A DNA stretch of 43,085 nt from a bacterium (GTDB taxonomy: Bacteria > Cyanobacteriota > Vampirovibrionia > Gastranaerophilales > UBA9971), in contig JBAWVS010000022.1 of NCBI GenBank assembly GCA_037147175.1, positions 1 to 43,085 of the forward strand. Direction: 5' to 3'. Below, piece after piece: positions 1,144 to 28,697 of this stretch. The translations under genes were made by a program, and so were the position numbers. The notes beneath the pieces are model-generated. The model ran no database searches and had not been told where the DNA came from. It worked only from the letters and a program-made list of their open reading frames with translations. Numbering within the stretch: position 1 is the stretch's first letter; each line of letters opens with the position of its first letter.

Positions 1144-1198
1144 AAAACCAAAGATATAATCCCATAACACTTTAAGACACTTAAAGGGAAATTTTGCA

Positions 1199-11701: not shown

Positions 11702-11735
11702 AAATATTTCCACTCTACTATAATTATTTATAAAG

Positions 11736-12919: not shown

Positions 12920-13615
12920 ATGGAAGAAGTTTTCAAGCAAAGTATTAAAAATTTTAATGATTTTGGAAATGAAATTGGAACAACTCATAATCGCTACACC
13001 TTAAAAGAGCTGATTAATAAAATTATTCCACAAGAATTAATTGATAAAGATAGACAAGATAAAAAAGAACTATATATTTTTGAAGATATTAAAACACCTT
13101 TGCTACAAGAAGAACAATGGGGGCTACATCCAGAAGGCAAATATCATGTTAGCACTTTAGCGAGAGTAAAGTATAAAGATGAAATATTGCCTCAAAAAAA
13201 TAAGTTAAACGATAAAGGTAAAGAAATGCGAGGTTATTTAGTTTTAGCACAAAATGAGTCTTCAAATGGAATAAAATTAAATACTACAAAGCATATATAT
13301 GAATTTGCTGCAGAAACCTTTTTAAGAGAGCGACCTTGTGATGGTGCTGTTCACCATATTACAAATAATGGTTATGATAATAGACCTGAAAACCTAATCA
13401 GACTTAAATGGTGTGTTCATGCTTGTATACATCCGTTTATGGTTGATTTCAGAATTCCATATGTATGCCAAAAATGTTCAGTATGCAAAGAACTTAAAGA
13501 TATTTTGAAAGAATATAAAAATAAAAAAAACATTAATACTATAAACGATTTACATGATTGGAGCATTTTTTTAATTGACGAGAATAATTTTAGTGCAGGA
13601 GTAATTTGCACTTAA
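12920..13615 (+). CDS. HNH endonuclease with NUMOD4-like segment
   Basis: The 231-residue protein has a YHVSTLARVKY segment near residue 75 that resembles the NUMOD4 motif of phage homing endonucleases, and an HNH core VHHITNNGYDNRPENLI near residues 145-162 with paired histidines and the final asparagine. Cysteines after it (WCVHACIHPF, then VCQKCSVCKEL) could bind zinc, but this is not certain. Such enzymes nick or cut DNA and spread as homing genes or act in defence. The AGAAAGG ribosome site is 10 bases before the ATG. The gene is very AT-rich compared with the phage genes, which suggests separate acquisition. Confidence 0.75.
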   Translation: MEEVFKQSIKNFNDFGNEIGTTHNRYTLKELINKIIPQELIDKDRQDKKELYIFEDIKTPLLQEEQWGLHPEGKYHVSTLARVKYKDEILPQKNKLNDKGKEMRGYLVLAQNESSNGIKLNTTKHIYEFAAETFLRERPCDGAVHHITNNGYDNRPENLIRLKWCVHACIHPFMVDFRIPYVCQKCSVCKELKDILKEYKNKKNINTINDLHDWSIFLIDENNFSAGVICT

Positions 13616-13634
13616 AATAAGAAAGCCAACAAAA

Positions 13635-14012
13635 ATGAAAAAAATTCTTGTAGTTGATGATTCTCCTGATTGGAGAAACACGCATATATTTGCACTAAAA
13701 TATCATTTTGGAAAAAATGTTGAGATTCATAGTGCAAATTCTGCAAAACAGGGACATCTTATAATAACAAAAAATATGTTTGCTCCGTATGACATAATAC
13801 TTGTCGATATGGAAATGGAGGAGGATTTTACTCCGCTATATGCAGGTGAATGGCTGATTAAACAAATACAATCATTGAGCGAGTACAGTAACTCGAAAAT
13901 TTTTATTGTATCTTCTGTTGGAGAAATAGCCGAAATGGCTGCAAAATACGGAGTTAATTACATTCCAAAAGACAAATGCGAAGACATTATGGAATATAAA
14001 TTTAATGAATAA
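13635..14012 (+). CDS. Stand-alone response-regulator receiver domain
   Basis: The 125-residue CheY-like receiver has no output domain. The acidic pair D8-D9, the phosphoacceptor D58 in ILVDMEME, the switch residue S93/S94 in FIVSS and the lysine K112 in IPKDK are all present, so it should be phosphorylatable. No histidine kinase lies in the window, so its partner must be elsewhere. It starts 20 bases after the HNH gene and may share its transcript. Its presence among defence-type genes is odd. It might be chromosomal cargo rather than a defence part. Confidence 0.85.
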   Translation: MKKILVVDDSPDWRNTHIFALKYHFGKNVEIHSANSAKQGHLIITKNMFAPYDIILVDMEMEEDFTPLYAGEWLIKQIQSLSEYSNSKIFIVSSVGEIAEMAAKYGVNYIPKDKCEDIMEYKFNE

Positions 14013-14058
14013 TTTTAATCCTATTGATTTTTAGACGAATTTTAGAGGATATAAGAAA

Positions 14059-14829
14059 ATGAGAAAATATCTGGATGTTTGGCATATAGAAGATTTTGGC
14101 GAAACCGGCTTAGCTAAAATGAAATCCACTGACAATAAGCATTATCTGATTGATACATCAGGAAAAGTTGTGTTAGAACAGGCTGCACATGTTGAGATTA
14201 TGGGAAATTACGAGAAATATGCTTTATTTAATAAAGCAGGAGAAATTATAGTGCCTTATGGTGTATATAATAACATCGATTTTTCTATTATGGAAAACCT
14301 AACAGGAACAGCTTTTGTTGCTGGTAAAGGAGATTCTGTAGGATTAATAGACGATAAAGGGAACGAAATTGTACCGCTTGGTTATTATGAGCAAATTATT
14401 CAAACTTACTACAGAGGTTTACCTGAAGGGTATATTTTACCTTATGAATTTGCGAAAAATACATATTTGGCAGTAAAAAATGGTAAAGCAGGCTTGATTA
14501 ACGATAAGGGCGAAAAAATTGATTATAAATATTGTAATACAGAAGAAGAGTTGTTAATGCAATTTGCTATACCTGCAATTTACACTCCACATCTAACCCC
14601 AAAGCGTGGTAATAATGGATTGTTCGGCTATATTAACCAACAAAATGAACTAATTATTCCTTATCAATTTATTAATGCTCTTGAATTTGTAAATGGTTTT
14701 GCGTGTGTTTCCGATTCCCTAAATATTGAAGATGCTGATGAGTGGAAATGGCATCATATTGATGAAACAGGCAAACGCTTGCAATACACTGTGAATTATA
14801 ACGAAAATGGAGAAATAGATGCAAAATAA
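14059..14829 (+). CDS. WG-repeat protein
   Basis: The 256-residue protein contains WG (KWG) beta-repeats: LIDTSGKVV, GLIDDKGNEIVPLGYYEQI, AGLINDKGEKI and LFGYINQQNELIIPYQFINAL, spaced about 40-60 residues apart. No signal peptide is seen, so the copy is probably cytoplasmic. WG repeats form blade-like scaffolds, and their biochemical role is mostly unknown, although they occur in several proposed defence and effector proteins. Its end overlaps the next gene by 11 bases, which suggests the two act together. It follows the receiver gene by 46 bases in the same direction. Confidence 0.8.
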   Translation: MRKYLDVWHIEDFGETGLAKMKSTDNKHYLIDTSGKVVLEQAAHVEIMGNYEKYALFNKAGEIIVPYGVYNNIDFSIMENLTGTAFVAGKGDSVGLIDDKGNEIVPLGYYEQIIQTYYRGLPEGYILPYEFAKNTYLAVKNGKAGLINDKGEKIDYKYCNTEEELLMQFAIPAIYTPHLTPKRGNNGLFGYINQQNELIIPYQFINALEFVNGFACVSDSLNIEDADEWKWHHIDETGKRLQYTVNYNENGEIDAK

Positions 14830-15532
14830 AAAGAATATTTTTATTTTTGCAACAACATTGTTTCTTTGTTTAGGCATATTTTTATTGGCGTTGAGAATTT
14901 ATAAACAAAATCAAGAATTTAAAATTGATGAAGAAAAAATTCAACAAAGAGGCTATTCTTATGTATATTCAAACTCTACAAACAAGTGGAGAGAGTATAA
15001 AGCAAATAATATTTTAGCTTCTGATGACATAATGGTTAGCAAAGTCGAAGAAGGTAAGTGTTATATTTTTTATTTTTCGTCATATCAGCTTAAATATTTA
15101 AACCAAAATCTGTTATTGGAGAATGTTTCAACTTTTATAAAAAATGGCAAATTATATACTTTTGATTATTCCAGTCTTAAAATGAGCGAAATCATAGCTG
15201 CCGGAAGCAAATTCAATAATAAAAGACTCGATGTAAACGAAATTCAAAAGATCTATCCGTATGTTGAAGTAATCAAAGTCAGCGATTTTAAAAACGGTTA
15301 TCTGAAAATAAAGAAAAACAAATCCTCTCAGAGTTATTTGCTTCTTTCAGATGCCAATTATTATGCCTATAACTATAATATTGGCGGTTGTGGATTTGAA
15401 TTAAAAAGAGAAGATTATTTGCCAATGTTCACAATAACCTCTAATAAGGCAAAAATTGTATATTCATTTTTTGGAAATTGTAATCGGTGTGATGATGAAC
15501 ATCCGTGCTTAACTATGGAGTTTTTTGATTAA
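14819..15532 (+). CDS. Membrane-anchored protein of unknown function
   Basis: The 237-residue protein starts with a single membrane helix (FIFATTLFLCLGIFLLAL, residues about 8-25), which anchors a 210-residue soluble domain probably outside the membrane. I do not recognise the domain. It is rich in Tyr, Asn and Lys, with a cysteine set near the C-terminus (CGFEL, then NCNRCDDEHPC) that could form disulfides or bind metal. Start codon overlap with the WG gene points to coupled expression. A surface or periplasmic partner of the WG protein is possible but unproven. Confidence 0.7.
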   Translation: MQNKKNIFIFATTLFLCLGIFLLALRIYKQNQEFKIDEEKIQQRGYSYVYSNSTNKWREYKANNILASDDIMVSKVEEGKCYIFYFSSYQLKYLNQNLLLENVSTFIKNGKLYTFDYSSLKMSEIIAAGSKFNNKRLDVNEIQKIYPYVEVIKVSDFKNGYLKIKKNKSSQSYLLLSDANYYAYNYNIGGCGFELKREDYLPMFTITSNKAKIVYSFFGNCNRCDDEHPCLTMEFFD

Positions 15533-15541
15533 AAAATGTAT

Positions 15542-15748
15542 TTAAGCTTCTCGAAAAAATATGTACCCCACTCCGATAATACACAATAAATACAGGCATT
15601 TAAAGCAGCATAAATAGCTTGTTGCAAACCTTATGTGGAATAAAAACTTTATAAAATATGCTAACGGCAAAGCAAGCAATCCCATAATTGCATAAGAAGC
15701 AACAACTACTGTTAAAAATTCTAATACTCTATTAATTTTAATTTTCAT
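15542..15748 (-). CDS. Small two-helix membrane protein
   Basis: A 68-residue frame with an ATG start encodes two hydrophobic stretches, VVVASYAIMGLLALPLAYFI and YLLCIIGVGYIFF, with three cysteines near the middle (YLCCFKC) and a basic N-terminus. It is convergent with the preceding gene and nine bases from its stop. No clear homologue is recognised. It could be a real small membrane protein or a chance frame; the well-formed transmembrane pattern and ATG favour the former. Confidence 0.45.
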   Translation of the reverse strand: MKIKINRVLEFLTVVVASYAIMGLLALPLAYFIKFLFHIRFATSYLCCFKCLYLLCIIGVGYIFFREA

Positions 15749-15766
15749 AAATTCAGCATATCAGAC

Positions 15767-15828
15767 ACACATGTCAGTATCGGGCATGTGTAAAAATACA
15801 AAAAATTATAAATGTCCGATTCTGACAT
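15767..15828 (+). promoter_or_regulatory. Cluster of operator-like dyads before the HAD-like gene
   Basis: A perfect ATGTC-N7-GACAT dyad lies at 15812-15828, with CTGACA (15822-15827) as a possible -35. Just upstream a 7-bp inverted repeat ACACATG / CATGTGT (15767-15773 and 15785-15791) contains further TGTC and GACA halves. The main dyad matches those at 11792 and 12845. An in-frame ATG inside it (15812) would extend the next protein, but the real start is most likely at 15878. Confidence 0.55.
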
Positions 15829-15877
15829 ACTGTTATGCGAAAATAATTCTCATAGAGAAAAATTTAAGGATAAATTT

Positions 15878-16207
15878 ATGAAAAAGAAGATATTTATTGA
15901 TTTTGACGGTGTTCTAAATACTTATAACGGCTGGCAGGGAGATAATGAACTGTTTGAACCTATGCCATATGCAAAAGAATTTTTAAAAAGACTCTCTGAA
16001 ACTTATGAAGTTTACGTTTTTACTACAAGAAACAGGGAAAAGGTTTATAAATGGTTGATAAGATATTTTCTTAATGACTATATTGAAGACGTTACAAATA
16101 AAAAAGAGCCTGCGTATCTATATATTGATGACAGGGCTTTAAAATTCGATGGAGATTATACAAAAATCCTTGAAGAAATTGAAAATTTCAAACCACACTG
16201 GAAATAA
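15878..16207 (+). CDS. Small HAD-like phosphatase
   Basis: The protein of about 109 residues begins KKIFIDFDGVLNTYNGW, the first HAD motif with nucleophile D8 and acid D10. It continues with a YVFTTRN segment (motif II threonine) and ends with YLYIDDRALKF (metal-binding acidic pair). It lacks a large cap domain, so it is a minimal HAD phosphohydrolase; the substrate is unknown. Similar small HAD proteins occur in phages as nucleotidases or kinase-phosphatase pieces. I place the start at the ATG preceded by TAAGGA (15865-15870). An upstream in-frame ATG lies in the operator dyad. Confidence 0.75.
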   Translation: MKKKIFIDFDGVLNTYNGWQGDNELFEPMPYAKEFLKRLSETYEVYVFTTRNREKVYKWLIRYFLNDYIEDVTNKKEPAYLYIDDRALKFDGDYTKILEEIENFKPHWK

Positions 16208-16271: not shown

Positions 16272-17096
16272 GTGTTAAGGCAAGATGGCGAATATAAAAT
16301 AGTGTCTTTTAGCGTTGGTGAAACCAAGAACGGTGACACTATGGCTAAACTACAGATAAAAGACATACAAAATGAAGAAACTTTTAACTGCATAATATGG
16401 AGCGATTTTCTTGTAAAGATTGACAAAAAAGCATTAAGAGTCGGCAATATTATCTCGGTGATTGAGTCTGAGTATAACGAAAAATTTAATAATGAAAAAA
16501 TAAAGCAGATTAAACTTATTAAGGAAGCCAGAACAGGTTTATCGGAAACCGAAAGACAAGTTTTATTTGATAAAATTCTCGAGATTATTAATTCTTTTAA
16601 AGATGACAAATTAAAAACTTCTTTGATGGAAGTTATATTTGAAAACGAAAACTTGTTTAAGACTTCTCCTGCTGCAAAAACACATCATCATAATTACATA
16701 GGCGGCTTGATTCAGCATGCTATCGAGTGTGTGGAGTTTGCAAAAGCAATATTTCCTGTGATTCCTGTTGATATAAATCATGAATTAGTGCTTACAGGTT
16801 GTATAGCTCATGATTTAGGTAAGATGTTTGAATATACTATCGACTTGGAATCCGGCGTTGTTGCCGTTGATGAAAAATTTATTAATGAGTGGATAAGTCA
16901 TATTCACTGGGGATTCAGTTGGGCAAATCAGAATGGTTTTCCTGAATTGGCACATATTATAGCTTCTCATCACGGGATAAAGGATTATGGTGCCCTCGTA
17001 GAACCTGCAACAAAAGAAGCTGAACTTTTCCACGAGATTGATATGCTTTCTTCAAGACTCGGAAGATTAAGTGTTGAAGAGTTAGAAAGAGTTTAA
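16272..17096 (+). CDS. YhaM-like HD-domain 3'-5' exoribonuclease
   Basis: The 274-residue protein combines an N-terminal OB-fold nucleic-acid-binding domain (residues about 5-75, with TMAKLQIKD and FNCIIWSD) and an HD domain from about residue 130. Metal ligands are seen in THHHNYIGGLIQHAIE, CIAHDLGKMFEY and IIASHHGIKDYG. This layout is that of YhaM, a Firmicutes exonuclease that trims RNA and in some cases DNA from the 3' end. I use the GTG at 16272 with AGGAG at 16259-16263; the ATG at 16268 is out of frame and meets a stop quickly. It is a little shorter than YhaM. It is the first gene of a six-gene plus-strand run and lies three bases before the next gene. Confidence 0.8.
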   Translation: MLRQDGEYKIVSFSVGETKNGDTMAKLQIKDIQNEETFNCIIWSDFLVKIDKKALRVGNIISVIESEYNEKFNNEKIKQIKLIKEARTGLSETERQVLFDKILEIINSFKDDKLKTSLMEVIFENENLFKTSPAAKTHHHNYIGGLIQHAIECVEFAKAIFPVIPVDINHELVLTGCIAHDLGKMFEYTIDLESGVVAVDEKFINEWISHIHWGFSWANQNGFPELAHIIASHHGIKDYGALVEPATKEAELFHEIDMLSSRLGRLSVEELERV

Positions 17097-17099
17097 AAA

Positions 17100-18254
17100 A
17101 TGCAAAATGAATTAAAAATTATACTGAATCAATTAAAAGAAAATCCGATATTTAGAATGTCTTTATGTTCAAAAGAATTGTTTCATTCTAACTTTTGGGC
17201 GTGGATGCTTGAACAATATCCGGATTCCATCAAATGTTTTGTACAAGACTATAAAAAAGATAATTATGGTGAATTTGAAAAAGTCTATAGAGAAAAGCAA
17301 AGTTTTGATCTTGTAATAGAAACAGACAAAAAATTTATAGTAATAGAAAATAAATTTAAGTCTATGCCAATCAAAGGTCAGTTAAATAAATATAGTAAAA
17401 AAGATGGAAATATTGATAAATTCATTAATGAAAGGAGTTCGGATAAAAAAGAAGTCAAATTATTAATTAGTTACATTGAGCCATATTTTGATGTAAATGA
17501 AATAGGTTGGGAGTATATAACTTATGAAAGACTTTCTGAAAAATTAAATGATTTTTTCAAAGACGTTCATGATAAAAATCCTTACATAAAAAACTACCTT
17601 GAAATGCTTAATTCTTTTATTCAAATAAAAAAACTTTTTGCATTAGAAAAAAATCCTAACTATAAAGATTTTTTTGAAATTTTTAATAATGATAAAAACT
17701 TACAAGATTTATTATCTGATATGAATTTTGAAAGCACCCTTAAAAGAATTTACATGTCAGAAGTTTATAAATATATTAGAAAAAATATCAAAGAAAAATT
17801 ACCAGATATAAGATTTTATATTAGAGATGATATTGACGAAAAAAACAATGAATTTTTAAAATTTAATAATTGTATGATATTAAACCTTGATTACAGCGGT
17901 TTGACTAAAAATGTTTTTATAGATTTTTTTGTTTATCAAGAGAAAATGGCAATTGGTTTTACGATTTCGGCTTCTCATTATAGGATTACATTGGGATCAT
18001 ATAGTAAAGAGAAGGATTTATCAAAAATTGTTAAAAATTTAATTGAAGATGAAAAATTTGAGTTTTTTAATGATAAGAATATAACCCCAAAAAATAAAAA
18101 ATATTATAGTTTTGGTGAAAATTGGAAATATCAAATTCTTCAAGAAATTGAATCTGAAAGAAAAATTTCAGAATTATCCAGTCTTCTTATCTGCGATCTG
18201 GAAAAACTCTTAAAGCATGATTTAAAGACATTACTTTGTTGTGACCAAAACTGA
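17100..18254 (+). CDS. PD-(D/E)XK nuclease family protein
   Basis: The 384-residue protein has a nuclease core near the N-terminus: ELFHSNFWAWMLEQYP is the family lead-in of PDDEXK_4-type proteins, followed by D70 in SFDLVIET and E83-x-K85 in FIVIENKFKS, with a glutamine-bearing helix after it (IKGQLNKY). The rest is an AT-rich helical region I do not recognise. Such proteins are common in defence islands and are usually undescribed in function. The ATG is three bases after the YhaM-like stop with no clear ribosome site, which suggests coupling. The SMC-hinge gene follows 48 bases on. Confidence 0.75.
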   Translation: MQNELKIILNQLKENPIFRMSLCSKELFHSNFWAWMLEQYPDSIKCFVQDYKKDNYGEFEKVYREKQSFDLVIETDKKFIVIENKFKSMPIKGQLNKYSKKDGNIDKFINERSSDKKEVKLLISYIEPYFDVNEIGWEYITYERLSEKLNDFFKDVHDKNPYIKNYLEMLNSFIQIKKLFALEKNPNYKDFFEIFNNDKNLQDLLSDMNFESTLKRIYMSEVYKYIRKNIKEKLPDIRFYIRDDIDEKNNEFLKFNNCMILNLDYSGLTKNVFIDFFVYQEKMAIGFTISASHYRITLGSYSKEKDLSKIVKNLIEDEKFEFFNDKNITPKNKKYYSFGENWKYQILQEIESERKISELSSLLICDLEKLLKHDLKTLLCCDQN

Positions 18255-18302
18255 CGTAAGCTTATGATAATATCAACATGTTAATATTTTGGAGGTAATT
18301 AA

Positions 18303-18782
18303 ATGATTCAGGCACAAAAAAATAGAATAGAAGAATTTTTATTAAATTCGAGCATTAAAGGCATTCACGGTACTCTAATAAATTGTTGCAGTATTCCCCC
18401 TGAATATTCTCAAGTTTTTCATTTAGCGTTCGGACCAAAATCAAAATATATTGTAGTAGATAATACTGATGCGGCAGCAGATGCAATAAAATTAATTAAA
18501 GAGAATAAGCTTGGTAGAGCAGTATTTATTGTACTCGATATGTTAGATCCTCATCCTGCACTAGATAAAGTTGAATTCGCTGGATTTATTGATTATTTTA
18601 TAAATTTAGCAAAATGTGATGAAATATTCAAACCTGCTTTGTATAATGCTTTAGAAAACACTATATTAGTAGAAGAGCTTGAACTTGCAAAAAATCAGTT
18701 CACTAAATTCAGAATGGTTACTTTAGATGGATGTATATTAGAGAGAGATGGTAGGATTACCGGCGGATATATACCCAATTAA
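18303..18782 (+). CDS. Free-standing SMC hinge-domain protein
   Basis: The whole 159-residue protein matches an SMC hinge, with no ATPase heads or coiled-coil arms. It keeps KGIHGTLIN (residues 19-27), the LAFGPKSKYIVVDNTDAA strand-helix, AIKLIKENKLGRAVFIVLD (residues 61-79), NTILVEELELAK (119-130) and RMVTLDGCILERDGRITGG (137-155). Each aligns in order with the hinge of bacterial SMC as I know it from B. subtilis. Hinges dimerise SMC arms and bind DNA. The GGAGG ribosome site (18291-18295) is strong. The gene lies between a PD-(D/E)XK nuclease and a UvrD/RecB-like helicase-nuclease. The function is unknown; options are a DNA-binding dimer for the neighbouring enzymes or an interferer with host or phage SMC proteins. 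Confidence 0.88.
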   Translation: MIQAQKNRIEEFLLNSSIKGIHGTLINCCSIPPEYSQVFHLAFGPKSKYIVVDNTDAAADAIKLIKENKLGRAVFIVLDMLDPHPALDKVEFAGFIDYFINLAKCDEIFKPALYNALENTILVEELELAKNQFTKFRMVTLDGCILERDGRITGGYIPN

Positions 18783-18835
18783 TCATAATAAAATTGTTTT
18801 ATTTAAATAAAAATTTTTATAGGTGACATTCAAAA

Positions 18836-21800
18836 ATGATAAATACGGCAGTTGAACAAAGAAAAATAACACCGAACTCTAAACAAATGGAGTGCATTAA
18901 AACTCTTGACGGTTCCGTTATGGTTTTGGCTGGTCCCGGAACTGGAAAAACATTTACTATAATTCAGCGTATCAAATATATGCTAGAACAGGGCATTCTC
19001 CCTGAATCTATTCTTTGCCTTACTTTCTCGGAAGCCGCAGCCAATGAAATGAAAGCCCGTCTTGTAAAAGAAATGGGAACTATTGCTTCTGCTGTAACAA
19101 TTCACACATATCACGCTTTTTGTAACGAGATTATTCAGCAATATCCTGCACAATTCGAGTTGCTGGACGGTGTGAGCCTTATCGATGATATTTCCAAACG
19201 TAACATTATGAAAGAATGCCTTGATGAGTACAAGACTACTTTTTACCGTACAAAATGGGGCGATGCGTATTACTACATCGGTGAATTACTAAAAGCAGTC
19301 GAGGAAATCAAGAAAAATCAGGTTACAAAAGAACAGTATTTTGAAACTTTAAGCTCACATCCAAACTGGCAAGGTAAGCTTGATGAGCTTTTAATTGAAT
19401 ATAAAGAGCGTGAAGCCAAAGGCAAACTGGTTAAAACATTCTTGAATAACCTTGAAACCCACAAAAGAAAGATGGGCAAGGCTCAGGAAGCTTGGGAAAT
19501 ATATGAAATTTATGACAAAAAACTAAAACAGAATAACTTTATCGACTTTAACGATATGATAAATCTTGTGCTGGAAGTATTTGACAGCAATGAGGACTTG
19601 CTTAAAAAGGCTTCAAGAAGGTATTTGTATTTTCTGATAGATGAATATCAGGATACAAATTACTCTCAAAACCAGATAGTGTTTAAGCTTGCGGAAGGCT
19701 CAGACAATGAAAACATTTTTGTGGTGGGTGATGACGACCAGATAATTTATGGTTTTCAGGGTGCACAGATAGATAACCTTGAAAAATTCCTTAAACGCTA
19801 CCCGAAAACAAAAGTTATCTGCCTTGATGAAAATAATCGCTCAACGCAAACTATTCTTAATTTAAGCTATGAAGTTATTTCGCAGGACAAGACCAGACTT
19901 GAGATTAACTCTGAGTTTGAAGATTACCAAATTTCTAAAAAACTCATTGCTAAAAATGAAAAGATTACCTGCCACGATAAAAAAGTGCGGATTCATGGCT
20001 TTGGGGATATTAAACAGGAAAATAACTATATTGTTGAAGACATAGAAAAACTTATAACTTCTCCATCCGCTCCAAAAAATGATGACGGCGAAGTTGATTT
20101 GTCCCAAATAGCAATACTTTCAAAGAAAAATTCAGAACTGGAAACATTTGCAGAGTTGCTAAAAGCAAAAAATATTCCGTTCCAGATCAAATCCAGCAAG
20201 AGCATTTTTGAATTAAGACCGTCAATCCTTATTTATTTCTACCTAAAGGCTTTGCAAAACAATGAATTGTACTCTGACAAATTGTTTGGGCTTTTGTTAT
20301 CACAGCCGTTTGAACTTGATGCAGGAGATTACAATTTCTTGCTTAATCAAAACAGGCTCAACCACAGGGATTTTATTTCCAACATAAACGAAAACATAAA
20401 CAGGGATTGGGCAAATAAAGAAAAAATTTCCAATTTTATCCAAACTTACAATGAATTAAAAGAAATTAAATCTCATCATTCCTTGAAAAATATAATCATA
20501 GAGCTGATTAACAGAACAGGAATTCTTGAATACTTCTTGAAATCAGAGATTAATAGAATACAAAACATCCTTGCTATTAAAAAGATTGTGGATGAAGCTT
20601 CAGCGTTTGCTAATTTGCATATATCTGCTAATATTCAGGACTTTATCGAGTATCTTGATATGGCATTTAACGAGAGTATTCCTATTACAATAGACCAAGA
20701 TGATTACGTGCAGAACGCTGTACAGCTTTTAACCCTGCACGGTTCTAAAGGGCGTGAGTTTGAATATGTTTACATAAATAATCTTGTGGCAAAGAATTGG
20801 GAGAAGAAACGCAACCCAAATAATATGGACTTGCCGATAGAAAAAGATTCAGATGTTTCAGATGATGAAGACCTAAAAAAAGCAGAGCAGCTTAGACTTT
20901 TATTTGTTGGGATTACAAGAGCGAAGCACAGTTTGTGTTTAACATATTCCAACAAGATAAATGGAAATGCTCAGGAGCTTACAAGTTATCTTGCAGCAAT
21001 AACAGAAAGAGCAGACCTGTTTGAAAAGTTTAATCATGAGCTGAATGACGAGGAATATTCACTTGAAATACTTAAATCTTATACAAAGCAGGACTTTGAT
21101 TATTCAAGAGCATTTATCGAAGAGCTAAAAGCAAGGTTAAAAGATTTTATCCTTAGTCCAAGTGCTTTAAACAGTTATTCGAATTGTCCGAGAAGTTTCC
21201 TATATTCATATATTCTTAGAATTCCAATACTTGATACAGAATGGGAAGCGGCAAATTATGGTAGTGCAATCCATAAAACCCTTGAATGGGCAACAACAGA
21301 AGCAAGGGATAAAGGAAATTACCCAACTAATGAAGATTTTAATGCTGCTTTTATCAAGAAACTCAACAATCAAAAATTTATATCCCAATCCAAAAGAACA
21401 GAGCTTCAGGAAAGAGGACTTAACAGCTTGGGTGAATATTATCCTAACTTTAAGCAAACTTCACCCGATAAAATCTTTGCAACTGAGTATGCTCTTGAGT
21501 TTGTTCCTGTTGAAGATAGAACTATCAAAGGTTTTATTGACAGAATAGAAATCAATAATGACGGAACGTATTCCCTGTATGATTACAAAACTGGTTCAGC
21601 TAAATCAAAATCACAAATAGCTGACGGAAAAGACTACGAATCATATTTAAACCAGCTTAGATTCTACAAATTTGCGTTTGAAGCTTTGCATACAGATAAA
21701 AAGGTTTCGCAAGTCGGACTTATTTTTGTTGAAGAACACGATAAGAGCTATTATACAAAACTTTGTGAAGCTGATAATTTATACATCAAGACAAAAATTA

Positions 21801-21913
21801 TGGATACATACAAACAAATTCGCAATCTGAATTTCCAGCCGATAGAATATGCACCTGATAAAAAATGCAAATTCTGTGAATACAAGCAGCTTTGCAGACT
21901 AGATATTTTGTAA
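18836..21913 (+). CDS. UvrD-type helicase fused to RecB-like PD-(D/E)XK nuclease
   Basis: The 1025-residue protein is an SF1A helicase with Walker A AGPGTGKT (residues about 32-39), motif II FLIDEYQDTN near 268, motif III VVGDDDQIIYGFQGA, motif V TLHGSKGREFEYVYI and motif VI LLFVGITRAKHSL. The C-terminal RecB-like nuclease has GFIDRIEI near 900 and YDYKTG near 917. Cysteines in NCPRSF (about 783) and CKFCEYKQLC (about 1010-1020) match the four-cysteine Fe-S clasp of AddB and related nucleases. It should unwind and degrade DNA ends. Unlike AddAB or RecBCD, no partner nuclease-helicase is adjacent. It follows the hinge gene by 53 bases in the same direction. Base composition is less AT-rich than the genes before it. 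Confidence 0.92.
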   Translation: MINTAVEQRKITPNSKQMECIKTLDGSVMVLAGPGTGKTFTIIQRIKYMLEQGILPESILCLTFSEAAANEMKARLVKEMGTIASAVTIHTYHAFCNEIIQQYPAQFELLDGVSLIDDISKRNIMKECLDEYKTTFYRTKWGDAYYYIGELLKAVEEIKKNQVTKEQYFETLSSHPNWQGKLDELLIEYKEREAKGKLVKTFLNNLETHKRKMGKAQEAWEIYEIYDKKLKQNNFIDFNDMINLVLEVFDSNEDLLKKASRRYLYFLIDEYQDTNYSQNQIVFKLAEGSDNENIFVVGDDDQIIYGFQGAQIDNLEKFLKRYPKTKVICLDENNRSTQTILNLSYEVISQDKTRLEINSEFEDYQISKKLIAKNEKITCHDKKVRIHGFGDIKQENNYIVEDIEKLITSPSAPKNDDGEVDLSQIAILSKKNSELETFAELLKAKNIPFQIKSSKSIFELRPSILIYFYLKALQNNELYSDKLFGLLLSQPFELDAGDYNFLLNQNRLNHRDFISNINENINRDWANKEKISNFIQTYNELKEIKSHHSLKNIIIELINRTGILEYFLKSEINRIQNILAIKKIVDEASAFANLHISANIQDFIEYLDMAFNESIPITIDQDDYVQNAVQLLTLHGSKGREFEYVYINNLVAKNWEKKRNPNNMDLPIEKDSDVSDDEDLKKAEQLRLLFVGITRAKHSLCLTYSNKINGNAQELTSYLAAITERADLFEKFNHELNDEEYSLEILKSYTKQDFDYSRAFIEELKARLKDFILSPSALNSYSNCPRSFLYSYILRIPILDTEWEAANYGSAIHKTLEWATTEARDKGNYPTNEDFNAAFIKKLNNQKFISQSKRTELQERGLNSLGEYYPNFKQTSPDKIFATEYALEFVPVEDRTIKGFIDRIEINNDGTYSLYDYKTGSAKSKSQIADGKDYESYLNQLRFYKFAFEALHTDKKVSQVGLIFVEEHDKSYYTKLCEADNLYIKTKIMDTYKQIRNLNFQPIEYAPDKKCKFCEYKQLCRLDIL

Positions 21914-21923
21914 GGAGTAAATA

Positions 21924-24869
21924 ATGGATAATAAACAAAAATTTCAAAATTATATGCTAGATTTAATAAAAAAAGGCGAGTGTGGGTCATATGAATCTAG
22001 ATGTAGAAATTTTGAGTTTTGGGATTCGTTAGAGAAAATTATTGAAACTATAACCCAGAAAAACATATTTCAAGTTAATTCAACAAATGAATTAGAAAAT
22101 ATTCTAAGAATATTAAAGAGAAATCTGGATTGGAAGCGGTTTAATGCTGGTCATCAAAACGGTATCCCTTATGCACTTTTAAATAAGCATTACAGGTATT
22201 TCATAAGTAATAATACAAATTTAACACTGCAACTTGAAAATCCTCGAACAAATGAAAATAAATCATCTGATTTAGACAAATTAAGAGAAGAACTAATACA
22301 ATTTGGAGAATCTTTAAATTCAGAGAGATTTGATAGAAATGATGGACAAAGTACAGTTTTAAAAGTAAAAAATAGCTATGATAAACAGTTTGTTGCTGTT
22401 CATTTTGATAATGCAAATAAAAATGGCGTAAGAATTAGGTTGTCAAATAAATATGTTAGCGAAAAATTAAAAAATAGAACTGAAATCGAAAATTATGAAA
22501 AAAACTTTAATTTGAAATTTCTTGTTAAATCCGCTGATGACCTAAACATAGCGAAAGAACTTATTAAAAACTCAATAGAAAACGCTATAGAGATAGAAAA
22601 TAATTTTAATGATATTGATACTTTACTTAAAAAATATAAGGAATTAAAAAATTCATCTGAATATAATGAGCAGTATAAGTGGGATTACGCTATAAAAACC
22701 CAAGGTGTATTTCAAAATTTAGACAATTTAAATGAAAAAATTAAGAGTCTTGGTTCTCAGAATTTTCAATCATTTTTTATGAGGAATAGTGGCATTAAGT
22801 GGATGGCAGAAAAACATCCTGATATTTTAATGAGTAGTTTTGAATCACTATTTAATAACAGTATGAATTTAGAAGACAGAATAAAAGGCTTTAGAGACAG
22901 TATAAAAGATACTTTAAATAATGATGAAGGTTGGAAAAATAAAGGTTTAACAGATCCTGGTATTGATACAGCATCTTTTTTTCTTTTTACAAATGATTAT
23001 AAAAATCTTTTGTTGTTCACAAAAATCAAACCCTTTAATAATTATGCGAAAAAATTTAGCATTGATTATTTATTAAAATTTGAAGATTATGAAAAACGAT
23101 ACACCGATTGGATAAATTACTGTAATAAAGAATTAATTCCTAAAATGAACGAGGTATTAAATAAAGAAAATGATCTGCTTGATGCCCAAGATTTTATCTG
23201 GTTTGTAGGAAATCAAGGTAATATTGATTTGAACGCTTTTAGAGAAAGTCTTTTAGAATATGGAAAATCTTTAGGTGCTACAATAAATGAAACTGAGGCA
23301 TATACAGCACTTAAAACAAAAAATAATATTGCAGAAGTTCATAAAATATCTGACAAAAGTAAGCAATTTAGGGTTTTGGTTTCCTATGATAAATTAGATG
23401 AAGAACTAAAGAATATAACTGAAAAAGTGCCGGATAGTTATCAATGGACATTAAATGGAAGTTTTTATGTAAATTCGGAAGAAACACTGGAGCAAGCAAA
23501 AGAACTTATTGCAAAAGTAATAAATAAAACTGAAAATGATTTTAATGTTGAGGAAAATATAATGAACAATAGCAGTATTCCACTTAACCAAATTCTATAC
23601 GGACCACCCGGAACAGGAAAAACATATCAGGCAAGGAAACTTGTTGAAACAATTTTATCACCGCAATTAAATATTCCGGTAGACGAAAAGCTAAAATTAT
23701 CTAAAATATTAGAAAATATGTATTGGTATCAAGCTTTAGCTCTTACTATGTATAGAAATGGCGAAAACAGGAAATATAAGGTTAAAGATTTAATTGATGC
23801 CCAAGAAATACAAATCTATTCAGAATTTAAAAATAGCAAAGACCTCCCTCCAACTCTTTGGGTGCAATTAAATACCAGAACATCGCCTGATAGTACGACT
23901 GTCAAAACTAATAAAGACTCAAGAATATATCCATACCTCTTTGATAAAACCGAAAATTCTGAATGGTTTTTGACAGACGAAGGTAAAAAATATGTTCATG
24001 AAGAATTGTCTGAAGTTTTAAATGAATTAAAAGAGACTAAGCAATTTGAAATTAAAGATTTTTATGAATTTATTACTTTTCACCAGAGTTATTCTTACGA
24101 AGAATTTGTTGAAGGAATCAAGCCGGTATTAACAGATAGCACTGAAACCAATGAAAGCATTTCTTATAAACTTGAAGATGGTGTTTTTAAGAAAATATGC
24201 TTAGAGGCAAAAAACAACCCTAATCTAAATTTTGTCTTGTTAATTGATGAAATAAACAGAGGAAATATTTCTAAAATATTTGGAGAATTAATTACTCTTG
24301 TTGAAGATACAAAACGCTTAAATAATAAAGAAGCTATTAATGCTCAGTTGCCGTATTCTAAAAAATCTTTCGGTGTTCCAAATAACCTCTATATTATCGG
24401 TACTATGAATACTTCTGACCGTTCAATTGCTTCTGTTGATATTGCTTTGCGTAGAAGATTCAAATTTATTGAAATAATGCCTGATTCTTCACTTGTTCCG
24501 ATTGATGTTGAAGGAGTAAAAGTCAGAGAAATATTTGAAAATTTAAACCAAAAAATATCCATATTGCTTGATAGAGACCACCAAATCGGTCATAGCTACT
24601 TTATTGGTGTTGATTCTATAGAAAAATTAGAACGTATCTGGTTTGATAACGTCATTCCGTTGCTTAATGAATACTTCTATGGCGAATGGGATAAATTACA
24701 AACAATTCTTGGTGATTTTATTTCTGTAAAAGATGTTCCGCCTGTATTAAAAGATATTTATGATGATAATAAATACTACGACTTTAAGAAACCGGAAGAA
24801 ATTGATTTTATTCAGGCAATAAAAAAACTAGAGAATAATGCTTATCATCAAACTCTTGTTGAGGCATAA
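21924..24869 (+). CDS. mcrB: McrB-like AAA+ GTPase of a type IV restriction system
   Basis: The 981-residue protein carries a McrB-type motor in its C-terminal 430 residues: Walker A YGPPGTGKTYQARK near 559, Walker B VLLIDEINRGNISK near 771 and the McrB signature GTMNTSDRSI near 825 followed by the ALRRRF arginine segment. McrB hydrolyses GTP to translocate DNA and directs McrC to cut modified DNA. The N-terminal 550 residues replace the short E. coli DNA-binding domain. They hold two similar modules of about 100 residues (about 110-220 and 435-545) separated by a helical FFMRNSGIKW-type region. These modules probably read the modification. It precedes mcrC by three bases. Confidence 0.92.
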   Translation: MDNKQKFQNYMLDLIKKGECGSYESRCRNFEFWDSLEKIIETITQKNIFQVNSTNELENILRILKRNLDWKRFNAGHQNGIPYALLNKHYRYFISNNTNLTLQLENPRTNENKSSDLDKLREELIQFGESLNSERFDRNDGQSTVLKVKNSYDKQFVAVHFDNANKNGVRIRLSNKYVSEKLKNRTEIENYEKNFNLKFLVKSADDLNIAKELIKNSIENAIEIENNFNDIDTLLKKYKELKNSSEYNEQYKWDYAIKTQGVFQNLDNLNEKIKSLGSQNFQSFFMRNSGIKWMAEKHPDILMSSFESLFNNSMNLEDRIKGFRDSIKDTLNNDEGWKNKGLTDPGIDTASFFLFTNDYKNLLLFTKIKPFNNYAKKFSIDYLLKFEDYEKRYTDWINYCNKELIPKMNEVLNKENDLLDAQDFIWFVGNQGNIDLNAFRESLLEYGKSLGATINETEAYTALKTKNNIAEVHKISDKSKQFRVLVSYDKLDEELKNITEKVPDSYQWTLNGSFYVNSEETLEQAKELIAKVINKTENDFNVEENIMNNSSIPLNQILYGPPGTGKTYQARKLVETILSPQLNIPVDEKLKLSKILENMYWYQALALTMYRNGENRKYKVKDLIDAQEIQIYSEFKNSKDLPPTLWVQLNTRTSPDSTTVKTNKDSRIYPYLFDKTENSEWFLTDEGKKYVHEELSEVLNELKETKQFEIKDFYEFITFHQSYSYEEFVEGIKPVLTDSTETNESISYKLEDGVFKKICLEAKNNPNLNFVLLIDEINRGNISKIFGELITLVEDTKRLNNKEAINAQLPYSKKSFGVPNNLYIIGTMNTSDRSIASVDIALRRRFKFIEIMPDSSLVPIDVEGVKVREIFENLNQKISILLDRDHQIGHSYFIGVDSIEKLERIWFDNVIPLLNEYFYGEWDKLQTILGDFISVKDVPPVLKDIYDDNKYYDFKKPEEIDFIQAIKKLENNAYHQTLVEA

Positions 24870-24872
24870 ATA

Positions 24873-26180
24873 ATGAAGTCTCAAACTTTTTTTGAGTATG
24901 ACTTTGCCAAAGACCAAGATGGCAAAAAGCTTGAATTAGACAGCATCTTTGAAAACGAAGATGCTAAAAAGTTTGAGCTGTTTTTAGAAAAAAATAAACT
25001 TACAAAAGTTTTTAATATTACCCAAACAAGTATTCAAGCTCAAAATTATGTTGGAGTAATAAAATATAAAAATTATCAGTTTGAAATACTGCCTAAGTTG
25101 CTGGGCAAGAATGAAGAAGACAGGGACACTATACTGAAGAATCTTTTCTATATGCTTTCTTACACAAAGCAACTTGATATAAAAGACAATGATGTTGCGA
25201 AACTTTCAAAAACGGAAAATCCTTTTCTGGAAGTTTTAATAGGTATATTTGCCTCCTCGCTCCTTGATTCATTGTTGCGATTTATTCCTAAAAACTATGT
25301 TTTGCAGGAAGATAATTTGAAATATTTAAAAGGCAAACTGAATTTTACAGAAAATACAAAGAAAAATATAATCAATAAAGCCTGTTTTTATTGTGAATAT
25401 GATGAATTCAGCGAAGATAACCTTTTAAACCAACTTTTTTATTACGTTTGCCTTATGCTGAGTCAGCTTACAAAAACAGACGAAAATAAAAGAACTCTTA
25501 AGCAAATTTTAAATATTTATTCAGAAATATCTTTTGTGCAAATTACTAAAGAAAAAATAAGAAATTTAAAACTTTTCAGAAGTCAGAAAAGTTTTGAAAA
25601 GTCCTTCAATCTTGCAAAAATGTTTATTGAAAACTCTTCTGTGGAAATAAGTTCTAAAAAATTCAAGACGATTTCTCTTATGTGGGATATGAACCTGCTT
25701 TTTGAAGAGTTTATTTATCAATATTTAAGAAAAAATCAGCATAAAGTTCCCGAAATAAGTAAAATACGATATCAAAATAACGAAAAACTTGTTAAAAAAT
25801 CAGTGAATTTGCTTGAAGAAACAAATCATAAAAGAAGTTTTAAAAATACTTATACAGATATACTTATAGAACTTTATGACGGCAGGCTTATAATTCTTGA
25901 TACAAAATGGAAATTAAATGACGGAAACAAAAACGAATTCAAAAATGCAGATATATATCAGCTATTAGCATATAAAGAAATTCATAACCGATTAAATGAA
26001 AATCAGCAAATTTATCCTGTCCTTGCTTATCCGCTAACTAAAGAAGATTTTGCTTGGCAACATGAAGTTGATGAGGGAAAAGAAGTTTTGCTTACTTGTT
26101 TTGATTTAAGGACAAATTTAAAAGAAAATTCTGAAATTATAATAAAACGTATTAACGAAATTATTAGTTGGATAAAGTAA
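24873..26180 (+). CDS. mcrC: McrC-like nuclease subunit of a type IV restriction system
   Basis: The 435-residue protein is the McrC partner of the preceding McrB. It has the N-terminal beta-rich domain (YVGVIKYKNYQFEILPKLL), a central helical segment, and a C-terminal PD-(D/E)XK nuclease with TDILIELYDGRLIILDTKWK near residues 327-346, containing the DTK catalytic end. McrC stimulates McrB GTP hydrolysis and cuts DNA bearing modified cytosine. The pair is complete. It converges on the tyrosine-recombinase-like gene with nine bases between stops, the border between cargo and the transposition operon. Confidence 0.92.
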   Translation: MKSQTFFEYDFAKDQDGKKLELDSIFENEDAKKFELFLEKNKLTKVFNITQTSIQAQNYVGVIKYKNYQFEILPKLLGKNEEDRDTILKNLFYMLSYTKQLDIKDNDVAKLSKTENPFLEVLIGIFASSLLDSLLRFIPKNYVLQEDNLKYLKGKLNFTENTKKNIINKACFYCEYDEFSEDNLLNQLFYYVCLMLSQLTKTDENKRTLKQILNIYSEISFVQITKEKIRNLKLFRSQKSFEKSFNLAKMFIENSSVEISSKKFKTISLMWDMNLLFEEFIYQYLRKNQHKVPEISKIRYQNNEKLVKKSVNLLEETNHKRSFKNTYTDILIELYDGRLIILDTKWKLNDGNKNEFKNADIYQLLAYKEIHNRLNENQQIYPVLAYPLTKEDFAWQHEVDEGKEVLLTCFDLRTNLKENSEIIIKRINEIISWIK

Positions 26181-26189
26181 TTCTGCATT

Positions 26190-27251
26190 TTACAACTCAA
26201 AATCAAAATCCACAGCCGTCTTCAGAAACTCCTTATACCTATCGGCTGTATGCTGAACTGATTTATGACCAAGTTGATTCTGGATAAAAGTCAGAGGCTG
26301 ATTTTTTTGAATCATCATAACCGCATAACTGTCTTGCAGGATTTTAAAAGTTGTTTTTTCAATTCTGGCATGTTCAATAATCTTTTCAAGATCCCTGCCC
26401 CTGATATTATGCGTATTATGAAAATTCCCTGCTCCATTTGCAAAAACAGCATTGTATCTGTTGGGTCTCCAGTTTTTTTGATAGCTTTTTAAAAACTTTG
26501 CCAGCATTTCCGGCATGTCAACATACCGAATTTTAAACGGTGGCTTTCTCCAAATAGTTGATTTGGATAAAAGGTTTTTACTTATCCTGAGTTTGCGGTG
26601 TTCAAAATCCACATCATCCCAATTAATCGCAAGCAGCTCTCCTACAGAAAGTCCTGTTGCTACAGCAGTAAGTACAATAGGATACATCGCTTTGTTAAAT
26701 TTCACCGCTTTTAAAATTTTCTTTATTTCTTCTTCGGAAAGTATTTTTAGCGAAGGCGTGTCTTTAAGCCTGTGTATTTCAGGGAATTTAAACTTGTCAT
26801 CAAATTCAAGAATTGCTCTTTTCAGGAAGAAGAATATATTTTCAACAGTCCTATGAGTATATCCCTGACTTTGAATATGTTTAATAAATTCGACAATATC
26901 CATAGGCGAAATATCAGAAATACTTTTATCCTTGAAAAACGGCAATATATGTTTATCTGTATAAATCCTGTGTCCTCTGCTTGTTGATGGTTTCCTGCTT
27001 TTAAGACATTTTTGTATGTAAATATTTAATGCATCTGATAATTTTATTCCCACAGAAGGTATTTCAATTGGTAGATCAGGTTCTTTAAGAAAAACATATC
27101 TATTGCCTGTTTTGGTACGAATGATTCCATAAAAAATAAATTCATCAAGGTAGTGTTTAACAATCTTTTCTTCGATCTCAGTCAGCAAGACCATATCGCA
27201 TAAAGTAAATTCTTTTAATCTTTTAGTAAGTTTTAAAAGCTTTTCTCTCAC
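26190..27251 (-). CDS. Winged helix plus catalytically depleted tyrosine-recombinase fold
   Basis: The 353-residue protein begins with a winged helix (residues 1-55) like that of its upstream neighbour, then a core-binding SAM-like domain (about 68-150) and a tyrosine-recombinase catalytic fold (about 165-345). The fold is clear from ATGLSVGELLAINWDDVDF and FIQNQLGHKSVQHTADRYKEF. Catalytic residues are partly lost: box I arginine is S202, and the HxxR pair is K303 and Q306, while H329 and nucleophile Y339 remain. Normal strand exchange looks impossible, so a DNA-binding or architectural role is likely. It overlaps the gene before by four bases (ATGA) and ends the transposase operon. Length is usual for integrases apart from the added winged helix. 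Confidence 0.85.
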   Translation of the reverse strand: MREKLLKLTKRLKEFTLCDMVLLTEIEEKIVKHYLDEFIFYGIIRTKTGNRYVFLKEPDLPIEIPSVGIKLSDALNIYIQKCLKSRKPSTSRGHRIYTDKHILPFFKDKSISDISPMDIVEFIKHIQSQGYTHRTVENIFFFLKRAILEFDDKFKFPEIHRLKDTPSLKILSEEEIKKILKAVKFNKAMYPIVLTAVATGLSVGELLAINWDDVDFEHRKLRISKNLLSKSTIWRKPPFKIRYVDMPEMLAKFLKSYQKNWRPNRYNAVFANGAGNFHNTHNIRGRDLEKIIEHARIEKTTFKILQDSYAVMMIQKNQPLTFIQNQLGHKSVQHTADRYKEFLKTAVDFDFEL

Positions 27252-28015
27252 CGCAAATTTACTCCTTTAATTTGGACTGTCCTGAACTGCTTGAGTTCTT
27301 CCCTTGTAAACTCCCTTAAAATCCTGTTTCTAAAGCATATATAAGATGGAATTTTGTAATCAGAATCTGGGTGTAGTTGAAAATACTTTTCCTTTGCCCG
27401 ATTTATCGCATCTACCATCGTAACTACTTCAAAGGACAGGTAAAACTCCTTGAAGTATTTGTAAATTTCTTCTTTGACAGAGCTTTTATGTCTAGTAAAA
27501 CTGGTATATCCGGCAAGAAGAGCAGCTACCCCTCCTTCTAACAGGGAATTTCTGGCTCTCAACAGACTTGAACGAGATGTCTTCATCTCCGGGAATTTTT
27601 TATTCCACTGTTTTATAAAAAACTTGAGTTTTTCTCCGCCAAGTCCGCCCGAAGCTTCCAGCACAGCAAGATATTTATCTGCCTTCTTTTTTGCCCAAGC
27701 AGGTGCATTCAAATATATCTGGTAATCCTCGTCTTTTGTAATGTCAATAACAAGCTTTTTAGGTGTAATTGGAGGAATTTTCTTATCTTCATAAGTTGGT
27801 TTTGCTTTTACATCAGTCTTGGCAGACATGTTGTCTTTTTTTTCAGGGATGTGAATGTATCTCCCCCCTGTTATCTTTTTAATAATGCCTTTATTCTCAA
27901 GGTCAGACAGGTAAAAAAGTGTTGTTTCCTCGTCAATCTCAAGAATTGCCGATACATCGTCTGATGTGAATTTCGACATCATCCTAACCAGCTTTAGCAG
28001 TTTCGTCTGTCTCAT
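27248..28015 (-). CDS. Winged-helix protein with MuA-type DNA-binding domains, no catalytic domain
   Basis: The 255-residue protein has an N-terminal winged helix (residues 1-55; FTSDDVSAILEIDEE, then GIIKKITGGRYIHI) shared with the next gene. A basic linker leads to a domain at 100-170 (APAWAKKKADKYLAVLEA, then FFIKQWNKKFPEMKTSRSSL, then EGGVAALL) of the MuA I-beta/I-gamma DNA-binding type. The C-terminal 180-245 resembles the following subdomain of the transposase. There is no DDE catalytic domain. It may bind the element ends or operator and modulate transposition, as a Ner- or repressor-like factor (inference). It overlaps the ATPase gene by 32 bases and the recombinase-like gene by four. 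Confidence 0.75.
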   Translation of the reverse strand: MRQTKLLKLVRMMSKFTSDDVSAILEIDEETTLFYLSDLENKGIIKKITGGRYIHIPEKKDNMSAKTDVKAKPTYEDKKIPPITPKKLVIDITKDEDYQIYLNAPAWAKKKADKYLAVLEASGGLGGEKLKFFIKQWNKKFPEMKTSRSSLLRARNSLLEGGVAALLAGYTSFTRHKSSVKEEIYKYFKEFYLSFEVVTMVDAINRAKEKYFQLHPDSDYKIPSYICFRNRILREFTREELKQFRTVQIKGVNLR

Positions 28016-28697
28016 CTGTTATGAACTCCTTTAAAGTTATTTCGTCTACAGTACTCAAGCCATTTGAATGAGCTATCTGCTCGGCTTTGTTAATAAGTCT
28101 GACAATCTGCCTGAACCTATTAGACTTTGTATAGATAAAACTGATAGCACATTCTGTCATTTCAACTTCTGAAAGTTGCGTTATTATTTCTTTCACATCT
28201 TTTTTTATGAAAGATTTAAACTCCACTATTTCAGAAACCCTGTCATAGAGGTGTTTGTATCGCATGAGTTTTTGTTTAGCCTTTCCCATTCCCACCATAA
28301 TTATTGGGACACCTGTTTTATCGTGTATATCCCTTATAGTTTCTATAGTTTTTGCATCAGTAGCCAGATAATCAATTTCATCTACTATTATTGGTATTTG
28401 TTTTTCGGTTAAAAGTCTTACGCATTGTTTGAACATATCTATAGAGTAGAAGTAAGGAATTTCTCCCAGCTCTTCTACAATTTCTTGAATAAGCCACCTC
28501 CCTGACATAAGATTCGTTCCCCGAATATACACAGCATCATTTTGTGCTACCCACCATAAAACAGCCTTGCTTTTCCCTAACCCCGGCTCTCCATAAACCA
28601 GAGCCATCCCCGGAACTGTTTCAGGTCTATTTATTAAGTTGTTCATCAAATTAATAAAATTTTTGACATTTTGAGTTTTTACAAATATTTTCTTCAT
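27984..28697 (-). CDS. MuB-like AAA+ transposition ATPase
   Basis: The 237-residue AAA+ protein has Walker A GEPGLGKS (residues 36-43) and Walker B IPIIVDEIDYL (D106, E107), with a sensor region IIMVGMGKAKQKL and a C-terminal helical lid (SNRFRQIVRLINKAEQIA). MuB, TniB and TnsC of this kind bind target DNA as ATP filaments and bring it to the transposase while giving target immunity. It is shorter than MuB (312 residues), lacking the N-terminal helix-turn-helix extension, and nearer to compact MuB-like proteins of other transposable phages. It overlaps the transposase by four bases. Confidence 0.9.
   Translation of the reverse strand: MKKIFVKTQNVKNFINLMNNLINRPETVPGMALVYGEPGLGKSKAVLWWVAQNDAVYIRGTNLMSGRWLIQEIVEELGEIPYFYSIDMFKQCVRLLTEKQIPIIVDEIDYLATDAKTIETIRDIHDKTGVPIIMVGMGKAKQKLMRYKHLYDRVSEIVEFKSFIKKDVKEIITQLSEVEMTECAISFIYTKSNRFRQIVRLINKAEQIAHSNGLSTVDEITLKEFITDETDETAKAG

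Follow-up and report, generated by a model that had tools for sequence, protein, structure and literature searches.

The stretch of DNA analysed here, hereafter called the window, spans positions 1 to 43,085 of contig JBAWVS010000022.1 (assembly GCA_037147175.1, order Gastranaerophilales), and our subject is a block of six genes within it, at positions 16272-26180. All six are intact open reading frames (ORFs) of the + strand separated by gaps of 3, 48, 53, 10 and 3 bp, in agreement with the coordinates of a first-pass annotation. The domain identities proposed there, namely a YhaM-like HD protein, a PD-(D/E)XK nuclease (hereafter abbreviated as PDX), a lone SMC hinge, a UvrD/RecB-like fusion and McrBC, are borne out by Pfam matches (table 1) and by intact motifs read directly from the proteins: AHDLGK in the HD protein, FD..IENK in PDX, GPGTGKT, DEYQD and the nuclease motif GFID..DYKTG with its Cys cluster in the fusion, GPPGTGKT, DEINR and MNTSDRS in McrB, and TD..LDTKW in McrC. 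The fourth protein is a UvrD-Cas4 fusion, in which a UvrD helicase is joined to a PDDEXK_1 domain with a Cys cluster, whereas the last two genes are an McrB AAA+ protein with the MNxxDRS motif and an McrC nuclease in tandem. NCBIfam places the proteins as YhaM-like, SMC hinge only, PcrA/UvrD-like plus AddB/Cas4-like nuclease, McrB-like and McrC-like, in all cases under the curated equivalog cut-offs (147 vs 637 bits for McrB and 99 vs 338 bits for McrC). The HD protein, the sole copy of its kind in the window's genome, scores 78 bits against PRK13480 (YhaM exoribonuclease), where the cut-off of 460 is not reached; with its HD motif present, it is by these matches YhaM-like only.

Table 1. Genes of the window considered in this work, in order of position
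Feature	Position	Strand	Match or remark
Terminase large subunit	1-1143	+	Terminase_6C 1.3e-15
Mu portal	1199-2698	+	Portal_Mu 2.7e-103
N6/N4 DNA methylase	2685-3647	+	within head operon
Mu F	3637-4476	+	Phage_Mu_F 8.9e-26
D12 adenine methylase	4463-5296	+	within head operon
gpG/Phage_tail_S	5268-5717	+	Phage_tail_S 1.9e-30
HsdR (type I RM)	5859-8984	-	PADLOC REase_I, bits 1168
HsdS (type I RM)	8985-10136	-	PADLOC Specificity_I 3.5e-127
HsdM (type I RM)	10136-11713	-	PADLOC MTase_I 1.6e-127
WYL/WCX regulator	11862-12836	+	WYL 3e-11, WCX 2e-12
Variable genes from WYL to HD	12920..16207	+	five genes, as follows
Variable gene	at 12920	+	weak HNH
Variable gene	at 13635	+	receiver-like
Variable gene	at 14059	+	WG repeat
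Variable gene	at 14819	+	no family
Variable gene	at 15812	+	HAD-like
HD protein, YhaM-like	16272-17096	+	GTG start; HD match 2.8e-9 (Pfam)
PDX nuclease	17100-18254	+	PDDEXK_4 1.1e-7 (Pfam); GC 23.5%
Stand-alone SMC hinge, 159 aa	18303-18782	+	SMC_hinge 8.9e-26, residues 19-131 (Pfam)
UvrD-Cas4 (PDDEXK_1) helicase-nuclease fusion, 1025 aa	18836-21913	+	UvrD_N 1.2e-65, UvrD_C 3.2e-25, PDDEXK_1 2.1e-31 (Pfam)
McrB, AAA+ motor	21924-24869	+	AAA_5 8.6e-15 (Pfam)
McrC, PD-(D/E)XK nuclease	24873-26180	+	McrBC PF10117 1.1e-64 (Pfam)
Tyrosine-recombinase-like protein (INT)	26190-27251	-	without canonical Arg and HxxR residues (alignment)
Mu-type DNA-binding (HTH) protein	27248-28015	-	weak: phrog_310 7e-5
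MuB-like transposition ATPase	27984-28697	-	phrog_296 9e-48
MuA-like DDE transposase	28694-30718	-	phrog_310 3.7e-92; Mu-transpos_C 3.6e-13; DDE-like motifs
Glycosyltransferase (right flank)	35678-36817		
Glycosyltransferase (right flank)	41846-42988		

The first-pass annotation bounded the block at these six genes and missed both its location in a Mu-like prophage and the WYL gene that belongs with it. To the left lies a head operon (1-5717) with the gene order found in relatives L278, L279, L280 and L282, and to the right a transposition module (26190-30718) that is convergent with the six genes. A MuA-type DDE transposase and a MuB ATPase, together with a Mu-type portal, F and gpG, identify a Mu-like phage; a Tn7-like (TniA/TniB) transposon, also considered, was replaced by this assignment on the basis of PHROG matches and the Pfam matches to portal, F and gpG. 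The 20.3 kb from gpG to INT are then best read as phage cargo, because head and transposition genes flank this island and because the same plan is seen in L226, an independent viral contig of IMG/VR. The six genes make up the right half of the island, in the centre of which the genes of a type I restriction-modification (RM) system diverge from that of a regulator combining WYL with WCX. The boundaries of the block are therefore wider than first drawn, extending leftward to the WYL gene (11862) inside the prophage.

The explanation that we favor, with a probability of roughly 0.8, is that the six genes represent one half of a multi-system anti-phage cargo island, housed in a slot of a Mu-like prophage between gpG and the convergent transposition module, with a complete, swappable defence system opposite a WYL-led chain ending in UvrD-Cas4, which McrBC follows in the nearest relatives. 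Besides the phage genes that enclose the island within a single contig, this explanation is founded on the identical layout of L226, which reads: a methylase and a DrmD-like helicase on the - strand, WYL on the + strand, small genes, UvrD, McrB and McrC, then an INT/HTH fusion, MuB and MuA on the - strand, with a Mu-type portal farther left on the same contig. The proteins of L226 are 70% (UvrD), 51% (McrB), 46% (McrC), 68% (MuB) and 61% (MuA) identical to those of the window. Parts of the layout are shared by two further genomes: in G290 the C-terminus of UvrD, McrB and McrC face INT/HTH, MuB and MuA, while one contig of G018 (C168) carries the genes from portal to gpG followed by DndC, a DndD/PbeC-like protein, PbeA, WYL, HD, a PDDEXK_4 nuclease and UvrD. 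The order UvrD-McrB-McrC recurs in two related Mu-like phages, L226 and L227. McrBC and MuA are also neighbors, and often co-directional, in other branches of Mu-like phages; not counting that of the window, a minimum of 10 McrC genes, from at least 10 genomes, are found within 10 kb of MuA.

The same slot accommodates whole other systems in relatives, which is a further reason for regarding it as a cargo site. Opposite WYL, where the window has type I RM, L190 has type III RM, L191 type III RM with relatives of ZorA-D, G018:C168 Dnd/Pbe, L132 SspB with a BrxP/SspD-like protein, and L226 a DISARM-like pair of a type III-like methylase and the DrmD-like helicase (an assignment that replaced that of type III RM for this cassette); in L071 the slot holds Zorya, here co-directional with WYL. 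In other Mu-like prophages of the group, polysaccharide genes follow gpG, as in G018:C79 (Wzz, DegT and a glycosyltransferase), G219:C9 (UDP-sugar dehydrogenase, Wzy and a glycosyltransferase) and G000:C38, the second Mu head cluster of the window's own genome (export protein and Wzz). The site consequently has the character of a prophage defence hotspot: conserved phage genes stand at either side, and the defence cargo between them is interchangeable.

WYL is the gene of the island that related phages retain most constantly. Island-type WYL genes are 58-69% identical to that of the window (61% for L226), whereas every other one is at most 48% identical; among the 383 genomes of the order surveyed for WYL, the UvrD fusion and McrC, relatives at or above 58% identity occur only in G018 and G290. 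These two genomes appear polylysogenic, G018 having four island-type WYL genes and at least two MuA copies, and G290 two WYL and at least three MuA copies. Several of their contigs break off inside WYL or UvrD, as expected from repeated copies in one genome. In three contigs of G018 (L071, L072 and L073), as in the window, WYL and HD are followed in order by one or two genes and a helicase of the UvrD type; between HD and the helicase L071 has an Mrr nuclease and a nucleoside-deoxyribosyltransferase-like protein, L072 has DUF6884 and a protein without family, and L073 has a PDDEXK_4 nuclease in the place of PDX. MuA/MuB and the Mu head genes speak against reading WYL-HD-X-UvrD as a fixed chromosomal frame.

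The window's UvrD falls in one clade with the Mu-phage copies of L226 and L132 (SH-aLRT 99), and 10 of 52 other loci have a co-directional WYL gene upstream of UvrD at a distance of at most three genes, where the expectation is 0.7% per locus, a statistic that is independent of the WYL group defined at 58% identity or more. Beyond the phages, the six genes follow separate courses. HD, surveyed with PDX in 60 relatives, is found in the genomes of 53, usually as a single copy; the UvrD fusion occurs in 181 and McrC in 65 of the 383 genomes, for the most part apart from each other, and the neighbors of UvrD are mostly unrelated genes such as CstA, NhaC or UvrC among the neighborhoods examined. 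PDX relatives are present in 8 of the 60 genomes (23-41% identity), and both PDX and the hinge are absent from L226 and L227; they are local cargo that is not kept at this spot. GC is uneven over the six genes, from 23.5% to 34.6%, and the contrast between PDX (23.5%) and the adjacent HD (34.2%) gives PDX the appearance of a separate acquisition.

These surveys rule out a conserved six-gene operon. Of the composite, non-random defence operon suggested in the first-pass annotation, the defence-type content and the non-randomness stand, but not the unity of the six genes. Its suggestion of searching other genomes for the gene order yielded UvrD-McrBC (L226 and L227) and WYL..HD..UvrD (G018) and not the full order; the scattering that was to speak against it is real for HD and UvrD, mostly found apart from the others, yet the WYL-UvrD and UvrD-McrBC linkages recur. 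Its proposal of one transcription unit stays plausible, since promoter-like and terminator-like sites in the block do not exceed the expectation from shuffled sequence (67 vs 75 and 5 vs 5.0, respectively).

The hinge protein is peculiar in sharing with SMC (condensin) proteins only the hinge domain (SMC_prok_A, positions 509-660); ATPase heads and long coiled coil are absent, and it cannot be classed as an SMC protein. SMC hinges are folded, dimerising, DNA-binding domains, and the residues kept here are compatible with this. No stand-alone relative was found among the matches listed, which cover up to 205 genomes of the order and lie in frames of 785-1221 aa belonging to SMC genes, complete or truncated at a contig end; a second SMC-hinge match in G152, beyond the matches listed, is possibly another lone hinge or a split SMC gene. 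Neither was one recognised in genome contigs, viral contigs, plasmids or phages by scans for exact short peptides, which may overlook divergent copies (in viral contigs such scans failed to pick up MuA and WYL, both of which are present on L226). Judged from its sequence, this protein has a new domain arrangement. It could be a decaying, functionless fragment of an SMC-type gene, as its restriction to the hinge and the failure to find stand-alone relatives would allow; we consider this possible but doubtful, given that its ORF is intact, with its own start, between two tight neighbors, and that the invariant residues (including GRA, KxRxVTL and the TGG end) are kept at only 37% identity to the host SMC, which argues for divergence without breakage. 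Still less likely, in our opinion, is that it constitutes a new defence or anti-host part, either a DNA-binding dimer that recruits the neighboring nucleases to loops or ends of DNA, or a mimic pairing with the host SMC hinge and so coupling condensin to restriction.

The first-pass annotation left the choice between two systems side by side and one enlarged type IV system, in which HD, PDX, hinge, UvrD-Cas4 and McrBC would be obligate partners of a single machine. The first option comes close, insofar as McrBC stands beside other modules, while the second we deem improbable. The tight co-directional spacing, without internal terminators above chance, would suit a single machine, as would the adjacency of UvrD and McrBC in L226 and L227 and the proximity of McrBC and a UvrD of this family, in differing gene orders, in two more genomes; UvrD-PDX-McrB-McrC is found in L147, with a PDX relative (29% identity) right after UvrD and an EVE domain in McrB, and WYL-McrB-McrC-UvrD in a single row in L192. 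However, obligate partnership is hard to reconcile with UvrD and McrC genes that mostly occur without each other, with a near-universal HD elsewhere, with the lack of PDX and hinge in L226 and L227, and with the strong GC contrast between neighbors. That the island is chromosomal and merely beside prophage remnants is very improbable: even if the prophage end was not found and many genomes have chromosomal relatives of UvrD and HD, head and transposition genes enclose the island here and on L226, G018:C168 has head genes on the same contig, and other Mu-like prophages fill the same slot with different cargo.

Some observations nevertheless weigh against the interpretation as prophage cargo with a WYL-led chain. 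The contig begins inside the head operon, so that the left end of the prophage is off the contig, and we found neither the exact prophage end with its target duplication nor terminal inverted repeats, a short conserved element being present upstream of MuA only. The terminal helicase of L071 and L072 is a different UvrD (23-26% identity), and the long N-terminus of McrB matched no N-terminal recognition domain in Pfam. Finally, the WYL-UvrD count includes related loci, and the UvrD tree forces at least three label changes rather than 10 independent events; this number still indicates that the linkage arose more than once.

If the cargo interpretation is correct, regulation, division of labor and phenotype of the island might be envisaged as follows. 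The WYL regulator would keep the island low in the lysogen and raise its expression upon sensing nucleic-acid damage or invasion. Type I RM would attack unmodified DNA and McrBC is predicted to cut DNA bearing modified cytosine, the ends made by either being probably unwound and degraded by the UvrD-Cas4 fusion. HD, PDX and hinge would be add-ons to these cutters and their end processor: PDX may contribute an additional nuclease, the HD protein may trim 3' ends of nucleic acids, and the lone hinge may act as a dimerising DNA-binding adaptor or SMC mimic. The benefit would lie in keeping competing phages out of the lysogen.

The small genes of the island also seem to be exchanged. The five variable genes between WYL and HD have no relatives among related islands, and in L073, L132, L147, L191 and L226 a repeat protein of 91 aa, secreted by its looks, is encoded just ahead of UvrD or HD; in L073 its ORF opens with a stretch like the end of the window's HAD gene (FQPHWK), a sign that small genes are exchanged in this slot as well. 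With regard to the carrier, two genes for DNA methylases lie among those of the head and possibly protect the phage's own DNA; relatives keep the second at 73-77% identity, and the first is kept at 78% in one. INT has TGLS/TGMT at the canonical Arg site and no HxxR in the window and seven aligned relatives, losses that suggest a dead recombinase serving as a DNA-binding factor. INT and HTH are two overlapping ORFs in the window and a single ORF of 534-572 aa in L074, L226, L227 and L265. In addition to the second head cluster mentioned above, the window's genome (G000: C28, C32 and C38) contains two more copies of MuA, one at 80% identity and one at 53% that is interrupted by an internal stop. 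The two glycosyltransferases of the right flank encode proteins 97.6% identical, reflecting recent duplication, conversion or an assembly artefact.

Our results move a suspected composite operon into a mobile and testable context. Mu-like phages of this order have a large slot carrying either defence systems stacked around one WYL gene or surface-polysaccharide genes, and either cargo would likely shut competing phages out of the lysogen. The exchangeable modules (type I and III RM, Zorya, Dnd/Pbe, Ssp, DISARM-like and McrBC) could be assayed under one regulator, and the UvrD-Cas4 fusion is a candidate for their shared downstream processor.

The closest precedent is provided by the hotspots of P2/P4 prophages and satellites, where antiviral loci of about 1-5 kb with high turnover lie between two conserved phage genes (PMC9122126). 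The slot of the window is similar in this respect but spans 20.3 kb of a Mu-like phage, stacks several complete systems about a WYL gene, and has polysaccharide clusters in their stead in other prophages; the main text of that study uses none of the terms "Mu-like", "transposable" and "Mu phage", and no description of this cargo slot was found in the open literature searched, though one may exist elsewhere. In the sections of PMC5704561 considered here, UvrD-Cas4 fusions, with a UvrD helicase and a pfam12705 nuclease as in the window, are predicted to serve several defence systems as auxiliary enzymes that unwind and cleave, and lie beside type III RM (cf. the slot of L190 and L191), WYL and HTH genes; McrBC, HD or hinge partners and a Mu-like carrier are not described in those sections. 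Defence islands are repressed or activated by WYL proteins, some of which bind single-stranded DNA (PMC9122601 and abstract of PMC12340889); PMC9122601 also describes type III with type IV pairing in islands of BrxR-family WYL proteins, which resemble the present one in having a WYL regulator with mosaic contents (no BrxR orthology is claimed) and differ from it in that the window's island is inside a prophage. McrB and McrC have the adjacent genes, the MNTSDRS motif and the PD-(D/E)XK nuclease of type IV restriction, from which they depart by their scores under the equivalog cut-offs and by the long McrB N-terminus. There are thus precedents for prophage defence hotspots, WYL-controlled islands, UvrD-Cas4 fusions and McrBC, whereas new to this work are their combination in a large Mu-like cargo slot, the replacement of this cargo by polysaccharide genes in other prophages, the pairing of UvrD with McrBC, and the lone hinge.

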